DNA from: Tachypleus tridentatus | Lineage: Eukaryota > Arthropoda > Merostomata > Xiphosura > Limulidae | Assembly: GCF_004210375.1 (NCBI RefSeq) | Contig: NC_134833.1 | Location: 17,601,396-17,665,395 of the forward strand | Direction of reading: 5' to 3' | Length of the DNA stretch: 64,000 nucleotides | Shown: positions 1-64,000 of the stretch, in pieces | Layout: every line of letters begins with the position of its first letter | Position numbering within the stretch: position 1 is the first letter of the stretch | The notes under the pieces: model-generated | What the model was told of the DNA's origin: nothing | Seen by the model: the letters and a program-made list of their open reading frames with translations, nothing else | The model's database searches: none | Made by a program: the position numbers and the translations under genes

Positions 1-604
1 AACCCTACGTACATCATGACAGTACCAAAAACCCTACGTACATCATGACACAGTACTAAAACCTACGTACATCATGACAGTACCTAAAACCCTACATACA
101 TCATGACACGTCTCTAAAAAAAACCTACGTACATCATGACACAGTACCTACAAAACCTATGTACATCATGACATAGTCTCTAAAACCCTACGTACATCAT
201 GCACAGTCTCTAAAAAACCACGTACCCTGTACATCATGACCAGTCTCTAAAAAACCTACGTACATCATGACACATTCTCTAAAACTCTACGTACATCATG
301 ACAGTCTCTAAAAAAACCTTGCGTGTCATTACAGTCTCTAAAAAACCCTATGTACATCATAACATAGTCCCTAAAACCCTATGTACATCATAACATGGTC
401 CCTGAAAAAACTCTATGTACATCATAACATAGTCTCTAAAAAAACCTATGTACATCATGACATAGTCTCTAAAAAAACCCTGTACATCATAACATAGTCT
501 CTAAAAAAACCTATGTACATCATGACATAATCTCTGAAAGAACCCTATGTACATCATGACACAGTCTCTAAAACCCTACGTACATCATGACACAGTCTCC
601 AAAT
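1..604. repeat. ~31-bp tandem satellite, left edge
   Basis: About 19 head-to-tail copies of a 28-33 bp unit built around ACGTACATCATGAC followed by a CAGTCTCTAAAA-like spacer. Units differ mainly by ACGTAC versus ATGTAC (CpG decay) and by the number of A residues. The array begins before position 1, so its full length is unknown. The last clear unit ends near 604 and merges into non-repetitive DNA. Confidence 0.9.
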
Positions 605-1402
605 ACCATCCAAAATCACGGTATTTGAGTTAGCTAATTACGACTAATGAAAGCCAAAGTCTATAAGAGTGAGTGTGTGTTTTTCTTATAGCAAAACCAC
701 ATCAGGCTATCTGCTGAGTCCACCGAAGGGAATCGACCCTGATTTTAGCGTTGAAGTCTATAAGAAAGTCAAAACGTGCCATACTTATTGTGCTTTTAAT
801 CCCACATATCGTGCAAAACCATAAAACAAAACAGTCCATTGTAGATCGTCGGACAGTTTTCAGTTATTGAACACAAATTACAGTAATCGAACCAGCCAAC
901 TCTGGTGATGGATCTAAAGTGCACACATACATAACGGCTGTTATTTGTACAGAGATGTAGGAAACATTTATTCAACTGAAGAAGAACAGAATTCTTCGAA
1001 AGTGCTTGAAAACTGTTCTTTTAGTATTATATTTATTTTGTCTTATAAACTGTTTTGCACGTTCCAGTTATGTTTGTTTCTCTTGGAAACATCAAACTGT
1101 ATCAAATCCACATCCAAAACTACAATATATGTGAAATAAACAAGAACAAATTACTGTTGGTTAAGATCCATAAAGTATGCCAACTGATACGTAGAATTAT
1201 ATACGGGCTTGTTTTTGCGTTAATATACTTTCATCTGGGATATGGTGCACAAAATACGACAAACATGTAATACAAATTATTGAAGAATGGATGTAGATAT
1301 TAAAACAGAAATTATCTTGTATCTCCATCAGGAGGTTCCTGTGATAACTTTTTATCAACTTTTAGGTTATGAATTTAGAGAAAAAAATTATTAACCATAT
1401 TT
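605..1402. other. Non-coding, one tRNA-like SINE-B relic
   Basis: At 687-762 there is a minus-oriented fragment of the second SINE family (CCACATCAGGCTATCTG, then a GGAATCGACCCTGATTTTAG box-B-like part). The rest shows no exon signature, only short AT-rich open frames. Confidence 0.5.
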
Positions 1403-36098: not shown

Positions 36099-36958
36099 AT
36101 TTACACAGCTTCTGGTAGTCATAGCAATGAATAATACACAGCCTCTGGTAGTCATAGCAATGAATAATACACAGCCTCTGGTAGTCATAGCAATGAATAA
36201 TACACAGCTTCTGGTAGTCATAGCAATGAATAATACACAGCTTCTGGTAGTCATAGCAATGAATAATACACAGCCTCTGGTAGTCATAGCAATGAATAAT
36301 ACACAGCTTCTGGTAGTCATAGCAATGAATAATACACAGCCTCTGGTAGTCATAGCAATGAATAATACACAGCCTCTGGTAGTCATAGCAATGAATAATA
36401 CACAGCCTCTGGTAGTCATAGCAATGAATAATACACAGCCTCTGGTAGTCATAGCAATGAATAATACACAGCCTCTGGTAGTCATAGCAATGAATAATAC
36501 ACAGCCTCTGGTAGTCATAGCAATGAATAATACACAGCTTCTGGTAGTCATAGCAATGAATAATACACAGCCTCTGGTAGTCATAGCAATGAATAATACA
36601 CAGCCTCTGGTAGTCATAGCAATGAATAATACACAGCTTCTGGTAGACATAGCAATGAATAATACACAGCTTCTGGTAGTCATAGCAATGAATAATACAC
36701 AGCTTCTGGTAGTCATAGCAATGAATAATACACAGCTTCTGGTAGTCATAGCAATGAATAATACACAGCTTCTGGTAGTCATAGCAATGAATAATACACA
36801 GCCTCTGGTAGTCATAGCAATGAATAATACACAGCCTCTGGTAGTCATAGCAATGAATAATACACAGCCTCTGGTAGTCATAGCAATGAATATTACACAG
36901 CTTCTGGTAGTCATAGCAATGAATAATACACAGCCTCTGGTAGTCATAGCAATGAATA
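36099..36958. repeat. 33-bp satellite, ~26 units, open in several frames
   Basis: About 26 almost perfect copies of a 33-bp unit (GTCATAGCAATGAATAATAC then ACAGCCTCTGGTA). 33 is a multiple of three and the unit contains few stop trinucleotides, so three frames are open end to end: plus MNNTQPLVVIA, minus MTTRGCVLFIA and minus HCYDYQRLCII. Nearly all variation is a single C/T (CCTCTGG or CTTCTGG). Single exceptions are GTAGACATA near 36640 and AATATTACA near 36890. There is no promoter or homologous domain around it, so I regard it as non-coding satellite. Confidence 0.95.
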
Positions 36959-37647
36959 AATAATGTTTTGAGAAAAGATAACATCAAAGTGCACCTACAA
37001 ACAATAACTATCCAGAAATGACATGTCAGGTGGCCTGTTAACTGTTTATATTCTAGTAATGTGTTTTTCATGGTTCCTACCACTGATAAGAATCTCACAT
37101 CATGATGAGTCTAGAGAAATCTACAGGCAGTGGTTATAAACATTTTAAGCATAACAGAGTGACCAAATTTCAATGAAAATGATTTAATTATGTTAAAGTA
37201 CATATGCTGATTTGTGAAAAAACTTGTATGTGATGGCAAAAAATGGATATCATTTTTGGATCCAGTATATAGGAACTACAGAGTGTGTAAAAAGTTTAAG
37301 ATGATAAAATCAACACAGGTCTATGTAATTTTTATGATTAAAAACCAACCTAACTTTGATTAGATGATTATTTATATCACATTAAAGTGATCTAATCAAT
37401 TTTGATTAGATGATTTTACCACATAACAAAATTTTTACTTTTTCTTGTTCCTGGGCAGAAAGTGTTATTCCCAATTGCTTATGCTTAAAGCAAATGAAAA
37501 AGACCTATTTTTCTCTTCAAACTTTGCTTTTGTGAGCTCGGTATGAAGTCTTAAAATTTACCCATTTTCCACAACATTCCAGGTAGATTCAGTGCTGAGT
37601 AGCTAATAGAGAATTTTCTTAAACTTACAAGAACTTTCCAGAATATT
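36959..37647. other. Non-coding; upstream half of a heat-shock element cluster at right end
   Basis: At 37631-37648 GAActTTCcaGAAtaTTg carries four heat-shock-factor pentamers in 5-bp register, directly against the start of the transposon at 37648. It repeats, with one change, the sequence at 40089-40106 on the other side of the element. Confidence 0.55.
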
Positions 37648-48972: not shown

Positions 48973-49673
48973 TTATCTGGGCTGGAGAAAATGACCGAGC
49001 GCATGACCTGAGCTGTAAACACACGAGTTCGTGGCTTCAAGCTGTGGTCTGCTGTCTGGCACAAACAGTGGTGGCTCCCCCTGGGAACCAGGAACTACAT
49101 GACTAAACATAGGGCAGCTCTGTACTCCCAGCAACGCTGATGGAGCTGTGAAGGCTTTACTACAGTGAGAAAAGCTGTCTGATTCCATGAAGCCTGTAGA
49201 ACCTGACCGTCGAATGGAATAGTCCGTGCTATAATTGGGGGTCCGATACAGTTCCAGGGGCGGGTTGACAACTCCTCGATCCCCCGCTAGACTTTCTTCT
49301 TTGCAGCTTGGGGTCACGATTAAGCCCTCGCTCACCACGTGATGGTCGTCACGAGATACATGCGCACTAGATAAGCAGCTCACCCGAAGACGATCCTGGG
49401 AGAATTGATCGGAAGTAAACCGACCCCACGGCGGAGTAGGTGACGCTCCAGCCCCGTGCATAGTCAGGTTTCCATGTGGGATATGGGGATACTGAGGGGT
49501 TCCAGCTAAGCCCAGGTGAACGTAAGGGTCAACTGCTCCGTGAGGTCCTACTGTCGGAATTTGGTTTGATGGAGATTCCTCTATCCTTGCGTACTTGCAC
49601 TGAGATTCCCTCGGTGCTATTCCTAACGGATTACCTGTGCCTGAGTGGAAGCTAACCGCTTCGTGCGTGGAAC
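48973..49673 (-). CDS. SoxE: SoxE last coding exon (transactivation region)
   Basis: This is the 3' coding exon of the SoxE-type transcription factor whose HMG exon lies at 52266-52675. The acceptor TTTTCCCAAG|GTTCC leaves GT, which joins the single G left by the previous exon to make a Gly codon, so phase is conserved. The frame then stays open for 232 codons plus TAA at 48973. It reads STHEAVSFHSGTGNPLG near the start, has MHGAGASPTPPWGRF in the middle and ends SSGHALGHFLQPR. There is no folded domain. It is rich in Ser, Pro, Gly and His, as expected for a SoxE C-terminal activation region, and it is clearly richer in G and C than its surroundings, as a coding exon should be. The internal ATG at 49461 is not a start. 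The terminal residues do not match the vertebrate VYTQLTRP ending, so C-terminal conservation is weak. Confidence as an exon is high; homology of this part rests on linkage and phase. Confidence 0.85.
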
Positions 49674-51257: not shown

Positions 51258-51900
51258 TCCCGGATTTAGGTCTAGCTCAGTCAGGGATAAAAATTATAAA
51301 CTCAGTCGTGTTTTGTAGTTACCAAGTTCGAATTCAGGACCAGCTCCATCGTCTATATGGTTTCTAAGTCCGAATTTAGGTTTACTTCTATCGTATTTTA
51401 CGGCTGCTCAGGCCAGATTTAGGACTATTTCAAGAGTGTTTTAAAGTTAGTCAGTCCGGATTTAGGACTATTTCAACAGCGTTTTAAAGTGAGTCAGTCC
51501 AGATTTAGGGCTAGTTCAATAGTGTTTATTAGTCAGTCCGGATTCAGGGCTATTTCAACAGTGTTTTAAAGTGAGTCTGAATTTAGGACTATTTCAACAG
51601 TATTCTAAAATTAATCAGTCCAGATTTAGGACTATTTCAACAGCGTTTTAAAGTGAGTCAGTCCGGATTTAGGGCTAGTTCAATAGTGTTTATTAGTCAG
51701 TCCGGATTCACGGCTATTTCAACAGTGTTTTAAAGTGAGTCTGGATTTAGGGCTATTTCAACAGTATTCTAAAGTTAATTAGTCCAGATTTAGGACTATT
51801 TCAACAGTGTTTTAAAGCGAGTCAGTCAGTATTTAGGGCCAGATTAATTGAATTTTTTAAGTCGCTTAGTTCAAATTTAGGTCTAATACAACGGCACTTT
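51258..51900. repeat. ~43-bp minisatellite with four-unit higher order
   Basis: Units of 39-43 bp run from about 51258 (diverged) to 51900. Each has TTTAGGACTATTTCAACAG then GTTTTAAAGTGAGTCAGTCC. A block of four distinguishable units (about 164 bp, including a short GGGCTAGTTCAATAGTGTTT unit) occurs twice in succession between about 51460 and 51790. Confidence 0.88.
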
Positions 51901-52265: not shown

Positions 52266-52675
52266 CTCTGTTTGATTGGAGTATGATCCCATCCGTGGTT
52301 AGTGGGTTTATGTCTTCTCTAGTTCTATGGTGAAGGATTCTGGCGCCATGATAGGGTGTCGTAGGAGGTGTTGGTGGGCTTTGGTGTGTAGGATAAGCGG
52401 CACTGCGACTGGAGTAGAGGGCGCTGTATGACCTATTGTCACTTTCTGAAGTGTCTGATCCAATGTTACTCCGATGATTAACAGAAGAGGTTATAGCTTT
52501 TATGGGTAAATGGGGTGGTTCTGAAACAGATGTTGAAGAGGTGGCGAATGTTGAACATTTTGGAGGTTTCCTTCGTCTTGGTTGGTATTTATAGTCGGGA
52601 TGGTCTTTTTTATGTTTACATCGAAGTCTTTCAGCTTCATCGATAAAGGGTTTCTTTTCATCGTCACCCAGAACC
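52266..52675 (-). CDS. SoxE: SoxE exon with second half of the HMG box
   Basis: SoxE proteins (vertebrate Sox8/9/10, Drosophila Sox100B) are HMG-box transcription factors that bend DNA at ATTGTT-like sites and act in gonad, neural and skeletal development. On the minus strand an acceptor TTACTACTTTCAG opens an exon reading (R)[18 protein letters not shown], then [16 protein letters not shown]. This is helix 3 and the basic tail of a SoxE HMG box, and [15 protein letters not shown] separates it from SoxB and SoxF. The exon starts one base into the Arg codon, the same phase and place as the conserved vertebrate Sox9 intron after GKLW. Downstream, SPPTPPTTP matches the PPTPPTTP segment of Sox9. 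The exon ends NRG with donor GAG|GTACTG after 136 full codons. Upstream, the acceptor is embedded in a huge tandem array of its own near-copies. Exon 1 (start, dimerisation region, first HMG helices) is outside the window. Confidence 0.93.
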
Positions 52676-53211
52676 CTGAAAGTAGTAATATATATATATA
52701 TATATATAAAGTAAAGTAATGGTAGTGTCTTTCGTTACAAGGTTTCTTGACATCGTCACCCAGAACCCTGAAAGTAGTAATATATATATATATAAAGTAA
52801 AGTAATGGTAATGTCTTTCGTTACAAGGTTTCTTGACATCGTCACCCAGAACCCTGAAAGTAGTAATATATATATATATATAAAGTAATGGTAGTGTCTT
52901 TCGTTACAAGGTTTCTTGACATCGTCACCCAGAACCCTGAAAGTAGTAATATATATATATATATATATAAAGTAAATTAATGGTAGTGTCTTTCGTTACA
53001 AGGTTTCTTGACATCGTCACCCAGAACCCTGAAAGTAGTAATATATATATATATATATATAAAGTAATGGTAGTGTCTTTCGTTACAAGGTTTCTTGACA
53101 TCGTCACCCAGAACCCTGAAAGTAGTAATATATATATATATAAAGTAAAGTAATGGTAGTGTCTTTTGTTACAAGGTTTCTTGACATCGTCACCCAGAAC
53201 CCTGAAAGTAG

Positions 53212-53250
<39 letters not shown>

Positions 53251-54987
53251 AAAGTAATGGTAGTGTCTTTTGTTACAAGGTTTCTTGACATCGTCACCCA
53301 GAACCCTGAAAGTAGTAATATATATATATATATATATAAAGTAAAGTAATGGTAATGTCTTTCGTTACAAGGTTTCTTGACATCGTCACCCAGAACCCTG
53401 AAAGTAGTAATATATATATATATATAAAGTAATGGTAGTGTCTTTCGTTACAAGGTTTCTTGACATCGTCACCCAGAACCCTGAAAGTAGTAATATATAT
53501 ATATATATATAAAGTAAATTAATGGTAGTGTCTTTCGTTACAAGGTTTCTTGACATCGTCACCCAGAACCCTGAAAGTAGTAATATATATATATATATAT
53601 AAAGTAAAGTAATGGTAGTGTCTTTTGTTACAAGGTTTCTTGACATCGTCACCCAGAACCCTGAAAGTAGTAATATATATATATATATAAAGTAAATTAA
53701 TGGTAATGTCTTTCGTTACAAGGTTTCTTGACATCGTCACCCAGAACCCTGAAAGTAGTAATATATATATATATAAAGTAAATTAATGGTAGTGTCTTTC
53801 GTTACAAGGTTTCTTGACATCGTCACCCAGAACCCTGAAAGTAGTAATATATATATATATATAAAGTAATGGTAGTGTCTTTTGTTACAAGGTTTCTTGA
53901 CATCGTCACCCATAACCCTGAAAGTAGTAATATATATATATATATAAAGTAAAGTAATGGTAGTGTCTTTTGTTACAAGGTTTCTTGACATCGTCACCCA
54001 TAACCCTGAAAGTAGTAATATATATATATATAAAGTAAAGTAATGGTAGTGTCTTTCGTTACAAGGTTTCTTGACATCGTCACCCAGAACCCTGAAAGTA
54101 GTAATATATATATATATATAAAGTAAAGTAATGGTAGTGTCTTTTGTTACAAGGTTTCTTGACATCGTCACCCAGAACCCTGAAAGTAGTAATATATATA
54201 TATATATAAAGTAAAGTAATGGTAGTGTCTTTCGTTACAAGGTTTCTTGACATCGTCACCCAGAACCCTGAAAGTAGTAATATATATATATATATAAAGT
54301 AAAGTAATGGTAGTGTCTTTTGTTACAAGGTTTCTTGACATCGTCACCCAGAACCCTGAAAGTAGTAATATATATATATATATAAAGTAAAGTAATGGTA
54401 GTGTCTTTTGTTACAAGGTTTCTTGACATCGTCACCCAGAACCCTGAAAGTAGTAATATATATATATATAAAGTAAAGTAATGGTAGTGTCTTTCGTTAC
54501 AAGGTTTCTTGACATCGTCACCCAGAACCCTGAAAGTAGTAATATATATATATATATATAAAGTAAAGTAATGGTAGTGTCTTTCGTTACAAGGTTTCTT
54601 GACATCGTCACCCAGAACCCTGAAAGTAGTAATATATATATATATATAAAGTAAAGTAATGGTAGTGTCTTTTGTTACAAGGTTTCTTGACATCGTCACC
54701 CAGAACCCTGAAAGTAGTAATATATATATATATATAAAGTAAAGTAATGGTAGTGTCTTTTGTTACAAGGTTTCTTGACATCGTCACCCAGAACCCTGAA
54801 AGTAGTAATATATATATATATATAAAGTAAAGTAATGGTAGTGTCTTTTGTTACAAGGTTTCTTGACATCGTCACCCAGAACCCTGAAAGTAGTAATATA
54901 TATATATATATATATATAAAGTAAAGTAATGGTAGTGTCTTTTGTTACAAGGTTTCTTGACATCGTCACCCAGAACCCTGAAAGTAG

Positions 54988-55030
<43 letters not shown>

Positions 55031-57841
55031 AAATTAATGGTAATGTCTTTTGTTACAAGTTTTCTTGACATCGTCACCCAGAACCCTGAAAGTAGTAATA
55101 TATATATATATATATAAAGTAAAGTAATGGTAGTGTCTTTTGTTACAAGTTTTCTTGACATCGTCACCCAGAACCCTGAAAGTAGTAATATATATATATA
55201 TATATAAAGTAAATTAATGGTAATGTCTTTTGTTACAAGTTTTCTTGACATCGTCACCCAGAACCCTGAAAGTAGTAATATATATATATATATAAAGTAA
55301 AGTAATGGTAGTGTCTTTTGTTACAAGGTTTCTTGACATCGTCACCCAGAACCCTGAAAGTAGTAATATATATATATATATAAAGTAAAGTAATGGTAGT
55401 GTCTTTTGTTACAAGGTTTCTTGACATCGTCACCCATAACCCTAAAAGTAGTAATATATATATATATAAAGTAATGGTAGTGTCTTTTGTTACAAGGTTT
55501 CTTGACATCGTCACCCAGAACCCTGAAAGTAGTAATATATATATATATAAAGTAAATTAATGGTAGTGTCTTTTGTTACAAGGTTTCTTGACATCGTCAC
55601 CCAGAACCCTGAAAGTAGTAATATATATATATATATATATAAAGTAAAGTAATGGTAGTGTCTTTCGTTACAAGGTTTCTTGACATCGTCACCCAGAACC
55701 CTGAAAGTAGTAATATATATATATATATAAAGTAAAGTAATGGTAGTGTCTTTTGTTACAAGGTTTCTTGACATCGTCACCCATAACCCTAAAAGTAGTA
55801 ATATATATATATATAAAGTAATGGTAGTGTCTTTTGTTACAAGGTTTCTTGACATCGTCACCCAGAACCCTGAAAGTAGTAATATATATATATATAAAGT
55901 AAATTAATGGTAGTGTCTTTTGTTACAAGGTTTCTTGACATCGTCACCCAGAACCCTGAAAGTAGTAATATATATATATATATATATAAAGTAAAGTAAT
56001 GGTAGTGTCTTTCGTTACAAGGTTTCTTGACATCGTCACCCAGAACCCTGAAAGTAGTAATATATATATATATATAAAGTAAAGTAATGGTAGTGTCTTT
56101 TGTTACAAGGTTTCTTGACATCGTCACCCAGAACCCTGAAAGTAGTAATATATATATATATAAAGTAAAGTAATGGTAGTGTCTTTTGTTACAAGGTTTC
56201 TTGACATCGTCACCCAGAACCCTGAAAGTAGTAATATATATATATATATATAAAGTAAAGTAATGGTAGTGTCTTTTGTTACAAGGTTTCTTGACATCGT
56301 CACCCAGAACCCTGAAAGTAGTAATATATATATATATATATAAAGTAAAGTAATGGTAGTGTCTTTTGTTACAAGGTTTCTTGACATCGTCACCCAGAAC
56401 CCTGAAAGTAGTAATATATATATATATAAAGTAAAGTAATGGTAGTGTCTTTTGTTACAAGGTTTCTTGACATCGTCACCCAGAACCCTGAAAGTAGTAA
56501 TATATATATATATATAAAGTAAAGTAATGGTAGTGTCTTTTGTTACAATGTTTCTTGACATCGTCACCCAGAACCCTGAAAGTAGTAATATATATATATA
56601 TATATATATATAAAGTAAATTAATGGTAATGTCTTTTGTTACAAGTTTTCTTGACATCGTCACCCAGAACCCTGAAAGTAGTAATATATATATATATATA
56701 TAAAGTAAAGTAATGGTAGTGTCTTTTGTTACAAGTTTTCTTGACATCGTCACCCAGAACCCTGAAAGTAGTAATATATATATATATATATAAAGTAAAT
56801 TAATGGTAATGTCTTTTGTTACAAGTTTTCTTGACATCGTCACCCAGAACCCTGAAAGTAGTAATATATATATATATATATAAAGTAAAGTAATGGTAGT
56901 GTCTTTTGTTACAAGTTTTCTTGACATCGTCACCCAGAACCCTGAAAGTAGTAATATATATATATATATATAAAGTAAAGTAATGGTAGTGTCTTTTGTT
57001 ACAAGGTTTCTTGACATCGTCACCCATAACCCTAAAAGTAGTAGTATATATATATATATAAAGTAATGGTAGTGTCTTTTTGTTACAAGGTTTCTTGACA
57101 TCGTCACCCAGAACCCTGAAAGTAGTAATATATATATATATAAAGTAAATTAATGGTAGTGTCTTTTGTTACAAGGTTTCTTGACATCGTCACCCAGAAC
57201 CCTGAAAGTAGTAATATATATATATATATAAAGTAAAGTAATGGTAATGTCTTTCGTTACAAGGTTTCTTGACATCGTCACCCAGAACCCTGAAAGTAGT
57301 AATATATATATATATATATATAAAGTAAATTAATGGTAGTGTCTTTCGTTACAAGGTTTCTTGACATCGTCACCCAGAACCCTGAAAGTAGTAATATATA
57401 TATATATATATATAAAGTAAATTAATGGTAGTGTCTTTCGTTACAAGGTTTCTTGACATCGTCACCCAGAACCCTGAAAGTAGTAATATATATATATATA
57501 TATATAAAGTAAATTAATGGTAGTGTCTTTCGTTACAAGGTTTCTTGACATCGTCACCCAGAACCCTGAAAGTAGTAATATATATATATATATACAAAGT
57601 AAAGTAATGGTAGTGTCTTTCGTTACAAGGTTTCTTGACATCGTCACCCAGAACCCTGAAAGTAGTAATATATATATATATATAAAGTAAAGTAATGGTA
57701 GTGTCTTTTGTTACAAGGTTTCTTGACATCGTCACCCAGAACCCTGAAAGTAGTAATATATATATATATAAAGTAAAGTAATGGTAGTGTCTTTTGTTAC
57801 AAGGTTTCTTGACATCGTCACCCAGAACCCTGAAAGTAGTA

Positions 57842-57872
<31 letters not shown>

Positions 57873-59637
57873 AAAGTAATGGTAGTGTCTTTTGTTACAA
57901 GGTTTCTTGACATCGTCACCCAGAACCCTGAAAGTAGTAATATATATATATATATATATATAAAGTAAAGTAATGGTAGTGTCTTTTGTTACAAGGTTTC
58001 TTGACATCGTCACCCAGAACCCTGAAAGTAGTAATATATATATATATAAAGTAAAGTAATGGTAGTGTCTTTTGTTACAAGGTTTCTTGACATCGTCACC
58101 CAGAACCCTGAAAGTAGTAATATATATATATATATATATATAAAGTAAATTAATGGTAGTGTCTTTCGTTACAAGGTTTCTTGACATCGTCACCCAGAAC
58201 CCTGAAAGTAGTAATATATATATATATATATATAAAGTAAATTAATGGTAGTGTCTTTCGTTACAAGGTTTCTTGACATCGTCACCCAGAACCCTGAAAG
58301 TAGTATATATATATATATATATATAAAGTAAAGTAATGGTAGTGTCTTTTGTTACAAGGTTTCTTGACATCGTCACCCAGAACCCTGAAAGTAGTAATAT
58401 ATATATATATAAAGTAAATTAATGGTAATGTCTTTTGTTACAAGTTTTCTTGACATCGTCACCCAGAACCCTGAAAGTAGTAATATATATATATATATAT
58501 AAAGTAAAGTAATGGTAGTGTCTTTTTTGTTACAAGTTTTCTTGACATCGTCACCCAGAACCCTGAAAGTAGTAATATATATATATATATATAAAGTAAA
58601 TTAATGGTAATGTCTTTTGTTACAAGTTTTCTTGACATCGTCACCCAGAACCCTGAAAGTAGTAATATATATATATATATAAAGTAAAGTAATGGTAGTG
58701 TCTTTTGTTACAAGTTTTCTTGACATCGTCACCCAGAACCCTGAAAGTAGTAATATATATATATATATATAAAGTAAAGTAATGGTAGTGTCTTTGTTAC
58801 AAGGTTTCTTGACATCGTCACCCATAACCCTAAAAGTAGTAATATATATATATATAAAGTAATGGTAGTGTCTTTTGTTACAAGGTTTCTTGACATCGTC
58901 ACCCAGAACCCTGAAAGTAGTAATATATATATATATAAAGTAAATTAATGGTAGTGTCTTTTTTGTTACAAGGTTTCTTGACATCGTCACCCAGAACCCT
59001 GAAAGTAGTAATATATATATATATATAAAGTAAAGTAATGGTAATGTCTTTCGTTACAAGGTTTCTTGACATCGTCACCCAGAACCCTGAAAGTAGTAAT
59101 ATATATATATATATAAATAAAGTAAATTAATGGTAGTGTCTTTCGTTACAAGGTTTCTTGACATCGTCACCCAGAACCCTGAAAGTAGTAATATATATAT
59201 ATATATATATAAAGTAAATTAATGGTAGTGTCTTTCGTTACAAGGTTTCTTGACATCGTCACCCAGAACCCTGAAAGTAGTAATATATATATATATATAT
59301 ATAAAGTAAATTAATGGTAGTGTCTTTCGTTACAAGGTTTCTTGACATCGTCACCCAGAACCCTGAAAGTAGTAATATATATATATATATACAAAGTAAA
59401 GTAATGGTAGTGTCTTTCGTTACAAGGTTTCTTGACATCGTCACCCAGAACCCTGAAAGTAGTAATATATATATATATATAAAGTAAAGTAATGGTAGTG
59501 TCTTTTGTTACAAGGTTTCTTGACATCGTCACCCAGAACCCTGAAAGTAGTAATATATATATATATAAAGTAAAGTAATGGTAGTGTCTTTGTTACAAGG
59601 TTTCTTGACATCGTCACCCAGAACCCTGAAAGTAGTA

Positions 59638-59668
<31 letters not shown>

Positions 59669-61059
59669 AAAGTAATGGTAGTGTCTTTTGTTACAAGGTT
59701 TCTTGACATCGTCACCCAGAACCCTGAAAGTAGTAATATATATATATATATATATATAAAGTAAAGTAATGGTAGTGTCTTTTGTTACAAGGTTTCTTGA
59801 CATCGTCACCCAGAACCCTGAAAGTAGTAATATATATATATATAAAGTAAAGTAATGGTAGTGTCTTTTGTTACAAGGTTTCTTGACATCGTCACCCAGA
59901 ACCCTGAAAGTAGTAATATATATATATATATATAAAGTAAATTAATGGTAGTGTCTTTCGTTACAAGGTTTCTTGACATCGTCACCCAGAACCCTGAAAG
60001 TAGTAATATATATATATATATATAAAGTAAATTAATGGTAGTGTCTTTCGTTACAAGGTTTCTTGACATCGTCACCCAGAACCCTGAAAGTAGTAATATA
60101 TATATATATATATAAAGTAAAGTAATGGTAGTGTCTTTTGTTACAAGGTTTCTTGACATCGTCACCCAGAACCCTGAAAGTAGTAATATATATATATATA
60201 AAGTAAATTAATGGTAATGTCTTTTGTTACAAGTTTTCTTGACATCGTCACCCAGAACCCTGAAAGTAGTAATATATATATATATATATAAAGTAAAGTA
60301 ATGGTAGTGTCTTTTGTTACAAGTTTTCTTGACATCGTCACCCAGAACCCTGAAAGTAGTAATATATATATATATATATAAAGTAAATTAATGGTAATGT
60401 CTTTTGTTACAAGTTTTCTTGACATCGTCACCCAGAACCCTGAAAGTAGTAATATATATATATATATAAAGTAAAGTAATGGTAGTGTCTTTTGTTACAA
60501 GGTTTCTTGACATCGTCACCCAGAACCCTGAAAGTAGTAATATATATATATATATAAAGTAAAGTAATGGTAGTGTCTTTTGTTACAAGGTTTCTTGACA
60601 TCGTCACCCATAACCCTAAAAGTAGTAATATATATATATATAAAGTAATGGTAGTGTCTTTTGTTACAAGGTTTCTTGACATCGTCACCCAGAACCCTGA
60701 AAGTAGTAATATATATATATATAAAGTAAATTAATGGTAGTGTCTTTTGTTACAAGGTTTCTTGACATCGTCACCCAGAACCCTGAAAGTAGTAATATAT
60801 ATATATATATATATAAAGTAAAGTAATGGTAGTGTCTTTCGTTACAAGGTTTCTTGACATCGTCACCCAGAACCCTGAAAGTAGTAATATATATATATAT
60901 ATATAAAGTAAAGTAATGGTAGTGTCTTTTGTTACAAGGTTTCTTGACATCGTCACCCAGAACCCTGAAAGTAGTAATATATATATATATAAAGTAAAGT
61001 AATGGTAGTGTCTTTTGTTACAAGGTTTCTTGACATCGTCACCCAGAACCCTGAAGTAG

Positions 61060-61091
<32 letters not shown>

Positions 61092-61334
61092 AAAGTAATG
61101 GTAGTGTCTTTTGTTACAAGGTTTCTTGACATCGTCACCCAGAACCCTGAAAGTAGTAACATATATATATATATATAAAGTAAAGTAATGGTAGTGTCTT
61201 TTGTTACAAGGTTTCTTGACATCGTCACCCAGAACCCTGAAAGTAGTAATATATTTATATATAAAGTAAAGTAATGGTAGTGTCTTTTGTTACAAGGTTT
61301 CTTGACATCGTCACCCAGAACCCTGAAAGTAGTA

Positions 61335-61365
<31 letters not shown>

Positions 61366-61432
61366 AAAGTAATGGTAGTGTCTTTTGTTACAAGGTTTCT
61401 TGACATCGTCACCCAGAACCCTGAAAGTAGTA

Positions 61433-61463
<31 letters not shown>

Positions 61464-62876
61464 AAATTAATGGTAATGTCTTTTGTTACAAGTTTTCTTG
61501 ACATCGTCACCCAGAACCCTGAAAGTAGTAATATATATATATATATATAAAGTAAAGTAATGGTAGTGTCTTTTGTTACAAGTTTTCTTGACATCGTCAC
61601 CCAGAACCCTGAAAGTAGTAATATATATATATATATATAAAGTAAATTAATGGTAATGTCTTTTGTTACAAGTTTTCTTGACATCGTCACCCAGAACCCT
61701 GAAAGTAGTAATATATATATATATATAAAGTAAAGTAATGGTAGTGTCTTTTGTTACAAGTTTTCTTGACATCGTCACCCAGAACCCTGAAAGTAGTAAT
61801 ATATATATATATATATAAAGTAAAGTAATGGTAGTGTCTTTTGTTACAAGGTTTCTTGACATCGTCACCCATAACCCTAAAAGTAGTAATATATATATAT
61901 ATAAAGTAATGGTAGTGTCTTTTGTTACAAGGTTTCTTGACATCGTCACCCAGAACCCTGAAAGTAGTAATATATATATATATAAAGTAAATTAATGGTA
62001 GTGTCTTTTGTTACAAGGTTTCTTGACATCGTCACCCAGAACCCTGAAAGTAGTAATATATATATATATATATAAAGTAAAGTAATGGTAATGTCTTTCG
62101 TTACAAGGTTTCTTGACATCGTCACCCAGAACCCTGAAAGTAGTAATATATATATATATATATATAAAGTAAATTAATGGTAGTGTCTTTCGTTACAAGG
62201 TTTCTTGACATCGTCACCCAGAACCCTGAAAGTAGTAATATATATATATATATATATAAAGTAAATTAATGGTAGTGTCTTTCGTTACAAGGTTTCTTGA
62301 CATCGTCACCCAGAACCCTGAAAGTAGTAATATATATATATATATATATAAAGTAAATTAATGGTAGTGTCTTTCGTTACAAGGTTTCTTGACATCGTCA
62401 CCCAGAACCCTGAAAGTAGTAATATATATATATATATATATATAAAGTAATGGTAGTGTCTTTTGTTACAAGGTTTCTTGACATCGTCACCCAGAACCCT
62501 GAAAGTAGTAATATATATATATATATATATATATAAAGTAAAGTAATGGTAGTGTCTTTTGTTACAAGGTTTCTTGACATCGTCACCCAGAACCCTGAAA
62601 GTAGTAATATATATATATATATATATAAAGTAAAGTAATGGTAGTGTCTTTTGTTACAAGGTTTCTTGACATCGTCACCCAGAACCCTGAAAGTAGTAAT
62701 ATATATATATATATATAAAGTAAAGTAATGGTAGTGTCTTTTGTTACAAGGTTTCTTGACATCGTCACCCAGAACCCTGAAAGTAGTAATATATATATAT
62801 ATATATAAAGTAAAGTAATGGTAGTGTCTTTTGTTACAAGGTTTCTTGACATCGTCACCCAGAACCCTGAAAGTAG

Positions 62877-62911
<35 letters not shown>

Positions 62912-63354
62912 AATGGTAGTGTCTTTTGTTACAAGGTTTCTTGACATCGTCACCCAGAACCCTGAAAGTAGTAATATATATATATATATAAAGTAAAGTA
63001 ATGGTAGTGTCTTTTGTTACAAGGTTTCTTGACATCGTCACCCATAACCCTAAAAGTAGTAATATATATACATATAAAGTAAATTAATGGTAGTGTCTTT
63101 TGTTACAAGGTTTCTTGACATCGTCACCCAGAACCCTGAAAGTAGTAATATATATATATATAAAGTAAATTAATGGTAGTGTCTTTCGTTACAAGGTTTC
63201 TTGACATCGTCACCCAGAACCCTGAAAGTAGTAATATATATATATATAAAGTAAAGGAATGGTAATGTCTTTTGTTACAAGGTTTCTTGACATCGTCACC
63301 CAGAACCCTGAAAGTAGTAATATATATGTAACGTAAAGTAATGGTAGTGACTTT
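52676..63354 (-). repeat. ~10.7-kb array of duplicated SoxE splice-acceptor units
   Basis: About 120 tandem units (estimated from an average spacing of 85-90 bp). In minus-strand order each unit contains GGTTCTGGGTGACGATG, TCAAGAAACC, about 33 nt of intronic sequence (TGTAACGAAAGACACTACCA), a (TA)n tract of variable length, and ATTACTACTTTCAG. The first ~28 nt equal the 5' end of the SoxE HMG exon except that GAA is GTC, so a unit would read [12 protein letters not shown] instead of [12 protein letters not shown]. The CAG or TAG acceptor dinucleotide is retained in every unit I read. Unit length varies mostly by TA count. Variant positions include GGTTTC/GTTTTC, AAAGTAATGG/AAATTAATGG, TTCG/TTTG and CATAACCCTAAAAG. 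Long minus-strand open frames through the array are by-products. Confidence 0.97.
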
Positions 63355-63472
63355 AGTAGTTGTTGTTAACTACAAAGTTACACAATAAGCTATCTGTGAT
63401 ATACCTACCCCAGGTATCGAAACCATATTTTTTGCCGTCATGAGCCTGCAGATTTACCACTGAACTTTCTTC
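63355..63472 (-). repeat. SINE family B copy at array edge
   Basis: TTAACTACAAAGTTACACAA, CCCCAGGTATCGAAACCATA and GAGCCTGCAGATTTACCACT in minus order. It marks the upstream end of the array within the SoxE intron. Confidence 0.65.
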
Positions 63473-64000
63473 TCTCTTGTCTGCACCAACCGTCTCTAAT
63501 TTAGAAGTGATAGCTGCTAAAATTAGAGGGGGCATGTGCAGACGCCCATCGAGTAGCTTTGACCAAAATTCAGCAGAGGCAGCAGAGTCCTCTATGGGTA
63601 CTGGATGTAGTTATAAGAACACTTTGAATGTATGCATTAATCAATGTTTATATAATTAAAACTATTACGGTAAAACTAATAACAAAAAGGCCTGTGTCTT
63701 TGTAATTCATCTGAAACATATCGAAATAACAAGTAAGTTTAGACCTGACACAGAACTCAAAAACATGGAATTTGATTTGGAGAAGTTCTGTATTTAAACT
63801 TACGACAACAATAAATAGCTTATTCAACAGTGAAAAATGGCTGTGTTTTGATCTATTTATTACAAAACCAAAACATTAATTCTGGTAATGGTTTCTGTCA
63901 CGCACAAAATCGATATTACCCTTGCTATATACTGAACGGTATGACCGTGAAAGATCATATTAACAAATCTGTTTTTTGTTTGTTTTCTTTTGAAGTTGTT
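63473..64000 (-). other. SoxE: SoxE intron 1, continuing past right edge
   Basis: I searched the minus strand for the first half of the HMG box (RPMNAFMVW-type residues) and found none, so intron 1 is at least 11.3 kb long. Part of a SINE-like body may be present at 63478-63560 (CTGCACCAACCGTCTCTAAT). Confidence 0.5.

Follow-up and report, generated by a model that had tools for sequence, protein, structure and literature searches.

Which of some 120 near-identical 3' splice sites is used when they stand in a row before a single exon, and how could such a row arise? The question is raised by a stretch of 64,000 nucleotides of the horseshoe crab Tachypleus tridentatus (NCBI RefSeq assembly GCF_004210375.1, NC_134833.1, positions 17,601,396 to 17,665,395), which is called the window in the following and numbered from its first letter. 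Its minus strand carries exons 2 and 3 of a SoxE gene and, directly before exon 2, a tandem array whose unit crosses the boundary between intron 1 and this exon of a real gene, i.e., the arrangement described as a "mirage" in amphioxus (PMC3087553). The explanation that we prefer, with a probability of about two thirds, is a giant mirage in SoxE intron 1 that is normally spliced and is located on a displaced duplicate contig of the assembly. The features concerned are the following:

52266..52675, minus strand: SoxE exon 2, 410 nt long, starting in phase 2 and ending in phase 1; it encodes the HMG box's second part and continues to ...ILQSNRG, PPTPPTTP included
52676..52688, minus strand: true 3' splice site of intron 1, TTACTACTTTCAG, read from the sequence and identical to that of the array units
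52676..63327, minus strand: array of 119 decoy units, each consisting of a spacer, (TA)n, the TTACTACTTTCAG acceptor and ~27-29 nt of the exon 2 start
63328..64000, minus strand: intron 1 upstream of the array (window 63248-63974 is a 95% match to the exon-1 locus)
48973..49673, minus strand: coding part of SoxE exon 3, open, ending in ...GHALGHFLQPR and a stop; its acceptor, like the whole gene model, is based on sequence and phase, not cDNA
C9:18463435, minus strand, outside the window: SoxE exon 1, 383 nt, ATG to AG|GTAAGT, a first-half HMG exon obtained by an HMG search of the genome and subsequent reading

Three contigs have to be distinguished, namely, B, the window's own contig; A, an inverted sister contig about 100 kb away; and C, a third locus that carries exon 1. 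The upstream SoxE exon expected by the initial annotation does exist, and its phase agrees with that of exon 2 (AG|GTAAGT into CAG|G), but it was found only beside C, 0.8 Mb away in the assembly and outside the window, because the window lies on an apparently misplaced duplicate contig. Exon 2 alone covers positions 42-69 of the HMG_box profile with 25.1 bits, just below the cut-off of 25.4, and the 497-aa protein obtained by joining exon 1 of locus C to exons 2 and 3 of the window reached 25.1 bits for Sox_N (cut-off, 23.1) and 89 bits for HMG_box. Within the PDB set, SOX-9 was the best structure match for exons 1 and 2 (160.8 bits versus 111.8 for the best other Sox protein). A phase-2 intron interrupts the HMG box after ...KLWR, and vertebrate SOX9 has an intron at the same place. 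By its Sox_N domain, an HMG box closest to that of SOX8/9/10 and the intron inside this box, the gene is SoxE; both this identity and the position of the array directly in front of the exon that contributes the remainder of the HMG box, as initially annotated, were thus borne out. Two coagulogen exons of the same genome align with PDB 1aoc at 48/48 and 48/51 residues, as expected of a horseshoe crab and pointing to T. tridentatus.

The array was called by Tandem Repeats Finder at 52649-63327 with a period of 90, 119.5 copies and 92% matches, and the minus strand contains 120 acceptor/exon-start units, i.e., 119 decoys plus the true exon, in line with the approximately 120 copies proposed at the outset. 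Each unit runs from the spacer through (TA)n and TTACTACTTTCAG into the exon 2 start and measures 81-108 nt from AG to AG (typically ~90 bp). The first base after the decoy AG ranges from 52767, nearest to the exon, to 63307, and the last of the 120 units holds the true acceptor at 52675, i.e., the authentic junction is the terminal and intact member of the cluster, as had been supposed. The 24-base anchor reads CTTTCAGGGTTCTGGGTGACGATG in 110 of the 120 units, has TAG and TTA in 7, TTA only in 2 and is one T short in 1; contig A, which harbors the same exon and array in inverted orientation with 46 acceptors (45 decoys plus the true one), has 44 exact anchors. The AG is intact in all 120 acceptors of the window, and every letter from -20 to +3 is identical to the true site in 108/119 decoys of B and in 44/45 of A, which substantiates the predicted ladder of decoy 3' splice sites. 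A candidate yUnAy branch point is present in the last unit (TTTAC, with the A 36 nt upstream of the AG).

The exon-derived part of the units is equally recognizable. The first 17 bases of exon 2 are reproduced without mismatch in 110/119 decoys and with one mismatch in the other 9, and over the first 29 bases there are three mismatches in 91/119 and four in 28/119; for three or fewer mismatches in 29, only ~5e-8 occurrences are expected by chance over 128 kb under uniform base composition. The differences common to the decoys are AA>TC (GAA>GTC) and C>T at position 28, and the originally reported two deviating bases therefore hold for the first 27 nt, beyond which this third shared difference has to be added. 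Outside the TA tract, whose length varies, the window array comprises 27 distinct unit cores; blocks of up to seven identical units recur within B, and the core of the unit at the intron edge occurs once per array, as do several interior cores. RNA folding revealed TA hairpins in the units and gave no clear prediction, the array-free site on C7 being more stable per 150 nt (-36.8 versus -21.7 kcal/mol).

The array would have started with a tandem duplication of ~60 nt of the intron end (branch-point region, TA run and TTACTACTTTCAG) together with the first ~28 nt of exon 2, and unequal exchange or slippage would then have expanded it until one version had 45 decoys and another 119. Every unit contributes a 3' splice site that is equivalent at the local level, and the last unit is the real exon. 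When the genome was queried with the array only, 23 matches besides the window were obtained, 22 in A and one at the edge of C, a lower bound since very common words were skipped in the search; on this evidence, a dispersed satellite or transposable element was rejected as the source. A 401-base array query additionally yielded two matches of 30-35 bases on C13, which concern the TA/acceptor part. The paralogue on C7, whose exon 2 is 76% identical, has only one acceptor and lacks an array; nor was the junction repeated at any of five Sox exon-2 loci (including C7) that were examined among 37 matches with flanks of ~1.5 kb, two of the five (L031 and L041) being near-identical copies of one locus. 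Over the first 17 exon bases, the decoy consensus agrees with the exon of B at 17/17 positions and the C7 exon differs at 4/17, and the array is therefore younger than that duplication, or else exchanges sequence with the exon. Exon 2 and its flanks are near-identical in A and B, and the two arrays, with 45 and 119 decoys, have at most two consecutive identical units in common (three if TA length is ignored) and share 5 cores out of 27 (B) and 17 (A), which suggests a rapid turnover of the array.

The contig structure at this site is peculiar. B spans C9:17599820-17685088 (~85 kb) and has no internal N over its whole length; A spans C9:17527951-17599319, in which no N was seen in the approximately one-half that was read or sampled; and 500-N gaps flank both contigs at both ends. 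B matches C in every sampled place from C9:18371759 to 18442731, and for A, matches to B were obtained in six sampled places and a match to C in the stretch L025. C in turn has a 500-N gap exactly where exon 2 and the array belong and continues for 20.7 kb to exon 1. Exon 2 has an open frame in A as well as in B, with a difference at one of 410 bases, and the flanks differ in 23/4585 and 42/3010 aligned columns (75 mismatches/6061 in a longer pairwise stretch). These observations suggest that A and B are displaced duplicate contigs, probably haplotig-like, of the SoxE locus at C9:18.42-18.46 Mb, and the 45 and 119 decoys are probably length alleles. A published T. tridentatus assembly, which is not necessarily the present one, has been termed redundant and misassembled, with 4855 of 34,966 proteins duplicated, and the heterozygosity of 0.8% reported for the related mangrove species is similar to the divergence of A and B (PMC7210998). 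The region C9:17527951-17685088 of genome G000, which includes window positions 1-64000, thus presents two contigs of one locus inverted around a 500-N gap, and duplicate genes called in it are therefore suspect.

How splicing would proceed on such a template can be predicted in part. Since the acceptors are locally equal, the choice has to depend on their position or on the sequence that follows, and only the last acceptor leads into the full 410-nt exon with a downstream donor; exon definition would therefore pick this one, normal splicing being the likeliest outcome, and occasional use of a decoy would give rise to transcripts with a frameshift or a disrupted HMG box, which would be rare or degraded. 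Donor scores were computed with an approximate position weight matrix (PWM), which gave 11.57 for exon 1. A donor-like GTAAC 29 nt past the acceptor, which had been pointed out before, is indeed present in 119/119 decoys of B and in 44/45 of A, but it is split into GTAACA (83) and GTAACG (36) in B and scores a weak 1.4-1.8. The microexon once proposed on its basis is not a likely product, because the site scores poorly and 29 nt shift the frame. A recursive splice site (ratchet point) was likewise discarded: the junction reads CAG|GGTTCT, and the best of four candidate donors in or near the unit, TGG|GTGACG, which is found in both decoys and exon 2, reaches 3.27 compared to 11.57 for exon 1. 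Decoy use had been predicted to run into a TA-coded YIYIY and a stop; a stop after 17 codons applies to 34/119 decoys of B, but (TA)n by itself contains none, and the frames extend over 17-181 codons. Two of the 119 decoys in B and one of the 45 in A are open through to the true acceptor, 0 and 1 of them in frame. The two in B are those nearest to the exon and are out of frame, the nearest being predicted to add 92 nt with a frameshift and a stop after 89 codons; the nearest decoy in A is predicted to add 90 nt, in frame and open, corresponding to 30 aa within the HMG box.

An influence of array length on the splicing of the gene is a less likely alternative. In such a scenario the decoys, which are transcribed earlier than the true site and mostly equal to it locally, would compete with it for splicing factors or for the donor of exon 1, and longer alleles would produce less full-length SoxE or more of an alternative product, as in ABCA7. 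The human ABCA7 variable number tandem repeat (VNTR) of ~12-427 units, which starts at a donor, is reported to lower expression and to promote skipping of the following exon as it lengthens, but the donor one unit on is used at only ~2%, unchanged with length (PMC5954066), the amphioxus mirages apparently retain regular splicing (PMC3087553), and no decoy comes with a good donor by this PWM. We therefore consider a length-tuned splicing of SoxE to be quite unlikely. Even more doubtful is the bolder variant in which array length sets SoxE dose or isoform, the decoys delaying or diverting intron 1 splicing and leaving allele-specific by-products, i.e., the in-frame 30-aa insertion in the HMG box from the +90-nt use in the 45-decoy version and the frameshift from the +92-nt use in the 119-decoy version. 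The length itself might be a product of the assembly, B being falsely expanded or A collapsed: the assembly of C broke at the array, identical blocks of up to seven units repeat inside B, and the sequence of the locus, above all in C, contains indel errors. But two contigs contain the array and a third contains its intron-side edge, and 27 distinct cores with varied TA lengths do not resemble one unit copied by software, which leaves this explanation improbable.

Unlikely, too, is a genuine partial segmental duplication as the origin of A and of the copy in the window, which would then be SoxE pseudogenes lacking exon 1. The scaffolding places them as an inverted pair 0.8 Mb from exon 1, and none of 83 HMG-box matches falls within C9:17.5-17.75 Mb. 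The short exon 2 was not listed in this interval either, but the search did pick up first-half exons at other places, with 55-57 bits. On the other side, 500-N gaps enclose both A and B, which agree with C in all places compared; the gap in C falls precisely at the position of their array and exon 2; exon 2 is open in A and B with a single difference between them; a second near-identical pair (L041/L031, 98%) exists on C9; and the cited redundancy and heterozygosity data fit with duplicate contigs, with the reservation that the former may concern another assembly. A giant, normally spliced mirage on a displaced contig nevertheless has to account for several adverse points. A, B and C are three near-identical versions, one more than a diploid allows, which also speaks for segmental duplication, and C is rich in indels near its gap: private substitutions number 8 (B), 15 (A) and 54 (C) over 4585 three-way columns on the exon 3 side and 10, 32 and 46 over 3010 columns on the intron side, and C has 46 deletion runs on the exon 3 side versus 12 and 11 in the other two copies and 17 insertion runs on the intron side versus 2 and 3. 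C may be a poorly polished or a third haplotype. The exon 2 donor on which exon definition depends (GAG|GTACTG) is weak by the same PWM, and its score of 2.95 is slightly below the 3.27 of TGG|GTGACG. The acceptor and exon-derived stretches vary less among units (0.013 and 0.026 in B, 0.004 and 0.003 in A) than the spacer (0.081 and 0.063, respectively), values that come from few independent sites and are affected by indel misregister; this could hint at constraint or at exchange with the real exon, and selection on decoy acceptors was, for the same two reasons, set aside as a deduction from unit diversity. Since ABCA7 demonstrates an effect of VNTR length on splicing and expression, neutrality should not be taken for granted. 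On balance, we still infer that the array is probably neutral and that the true exon is probably chosen by exon definition.

Some further observations concern the surroundings. Exon 3 is open in the window, and the frame is broken in its counterparts in A and C (L022 and L025); A has two 1-base gaps relative to the window, and gaps in C begin at the same two columns. The second Sox exon-2 locus that occurs twice on C9 with ~98% identity (L041 at C9:18588913 and L031 at C9:19412531) has a frame-breaking base difference in one copy; its 33-bp array, located more than 1 kb from the junction, comprises 8.2 repeats in one copy of the locus and 5.2 in the other. Tandem arrays are frequent in the contig (13 with a period of at least 15 and at least four copies, covering 20.4 of 83.6 kb, or 24%), e.g., a 45-bp unit with ~108 copies further up intron 1 (L023, 66759-71542 counted from the window start) and a 33-bp array with 26 copies at 36102-36959, in which three frames stay open over 293-337 codons, its unit being a multiple of 3. 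Two others are:

51408..51839, no strand: a further minisatellite of intron 2 with a 43/82-bp unit, found in A and C as well and spanning no junction
1..607, no strand: 31-bp tandem array that begins before the window; B starts inside it, after the 500-N gap G000:C9:17599320-17599819

First-half HMG exons occur as divergent neighbor pairs at C9:18463435(-)/18556399(+) and C7:14857928(-)/14925286(+), as would be expected of a duplicated two-gene Sox cluster, of which the minus-strand members were read.

The locus provides a natural and exceptionally clean test of 3' splice-site choice, with many acceptors of the same local sequence that differ only in position and downstream context in a developmental regulator, and a warning that such arrays break assemblies and may create spurious paralogues. 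The initial annotation knew of no described case, a statement that is not supported: minisatellites spanning a junction have been published as mirages in amphioxus, one of them with the same architecture, and donor-side counterparts are known from ABCA7 and IFI6. A mirage-like array in a horseshoe crab was not found in the literature searched, which largely left out subscription journals. The IFI6 (6-16) minisatellite is reported to yield multiple splice donors (PMC4526556); its units, like those of SoxE, add splice sites to the real one, and some of these are used in IFI6, but they lie on the donor side of a human interferon-induced gene. The VNTR in ABCA7 intron 18 resembles the SoxE array as a long repeat that extends from a real splice site and has a wide length range, and retention of one unit has been seen there; it differs in its donor-side position, its 25-bp unit and the fact that the effect of length on splicing was measured (PMC5954066). 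Closest are the amphioxus mirages in BflGb6, BflGb9 and Adh3, minisatellite-like tandem duplications over an intron-exon boundary, with haplotypes of 6 versus 3 units and RT-PCR (reverse transcription-PCR) results suggestive of regular splicing; in BflGb6, the unit consists of the 3' end of the intron plus the 5' part of exon 2, and many units retain the splice signals (PMC3087553). Boundary-spanning units and preserved splice signals are common to both systems, and the 45 and 119 decoys on two near-identical contigs would, if these are allelic, correspond to the copy-number difference between haplotypes. BflGb6 has few units of 150-160 bp, whereas the horseshoe crab SoxE HMG-box exon is preceded by 45-119 decoys in units of ~90 bp. 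The SoxE array is a very large instance of an already-described type of repeat, which extends mirages from amphioxus to a chelicerate and raises the number of units from at most 6 in the amphioxus globin case to 119.

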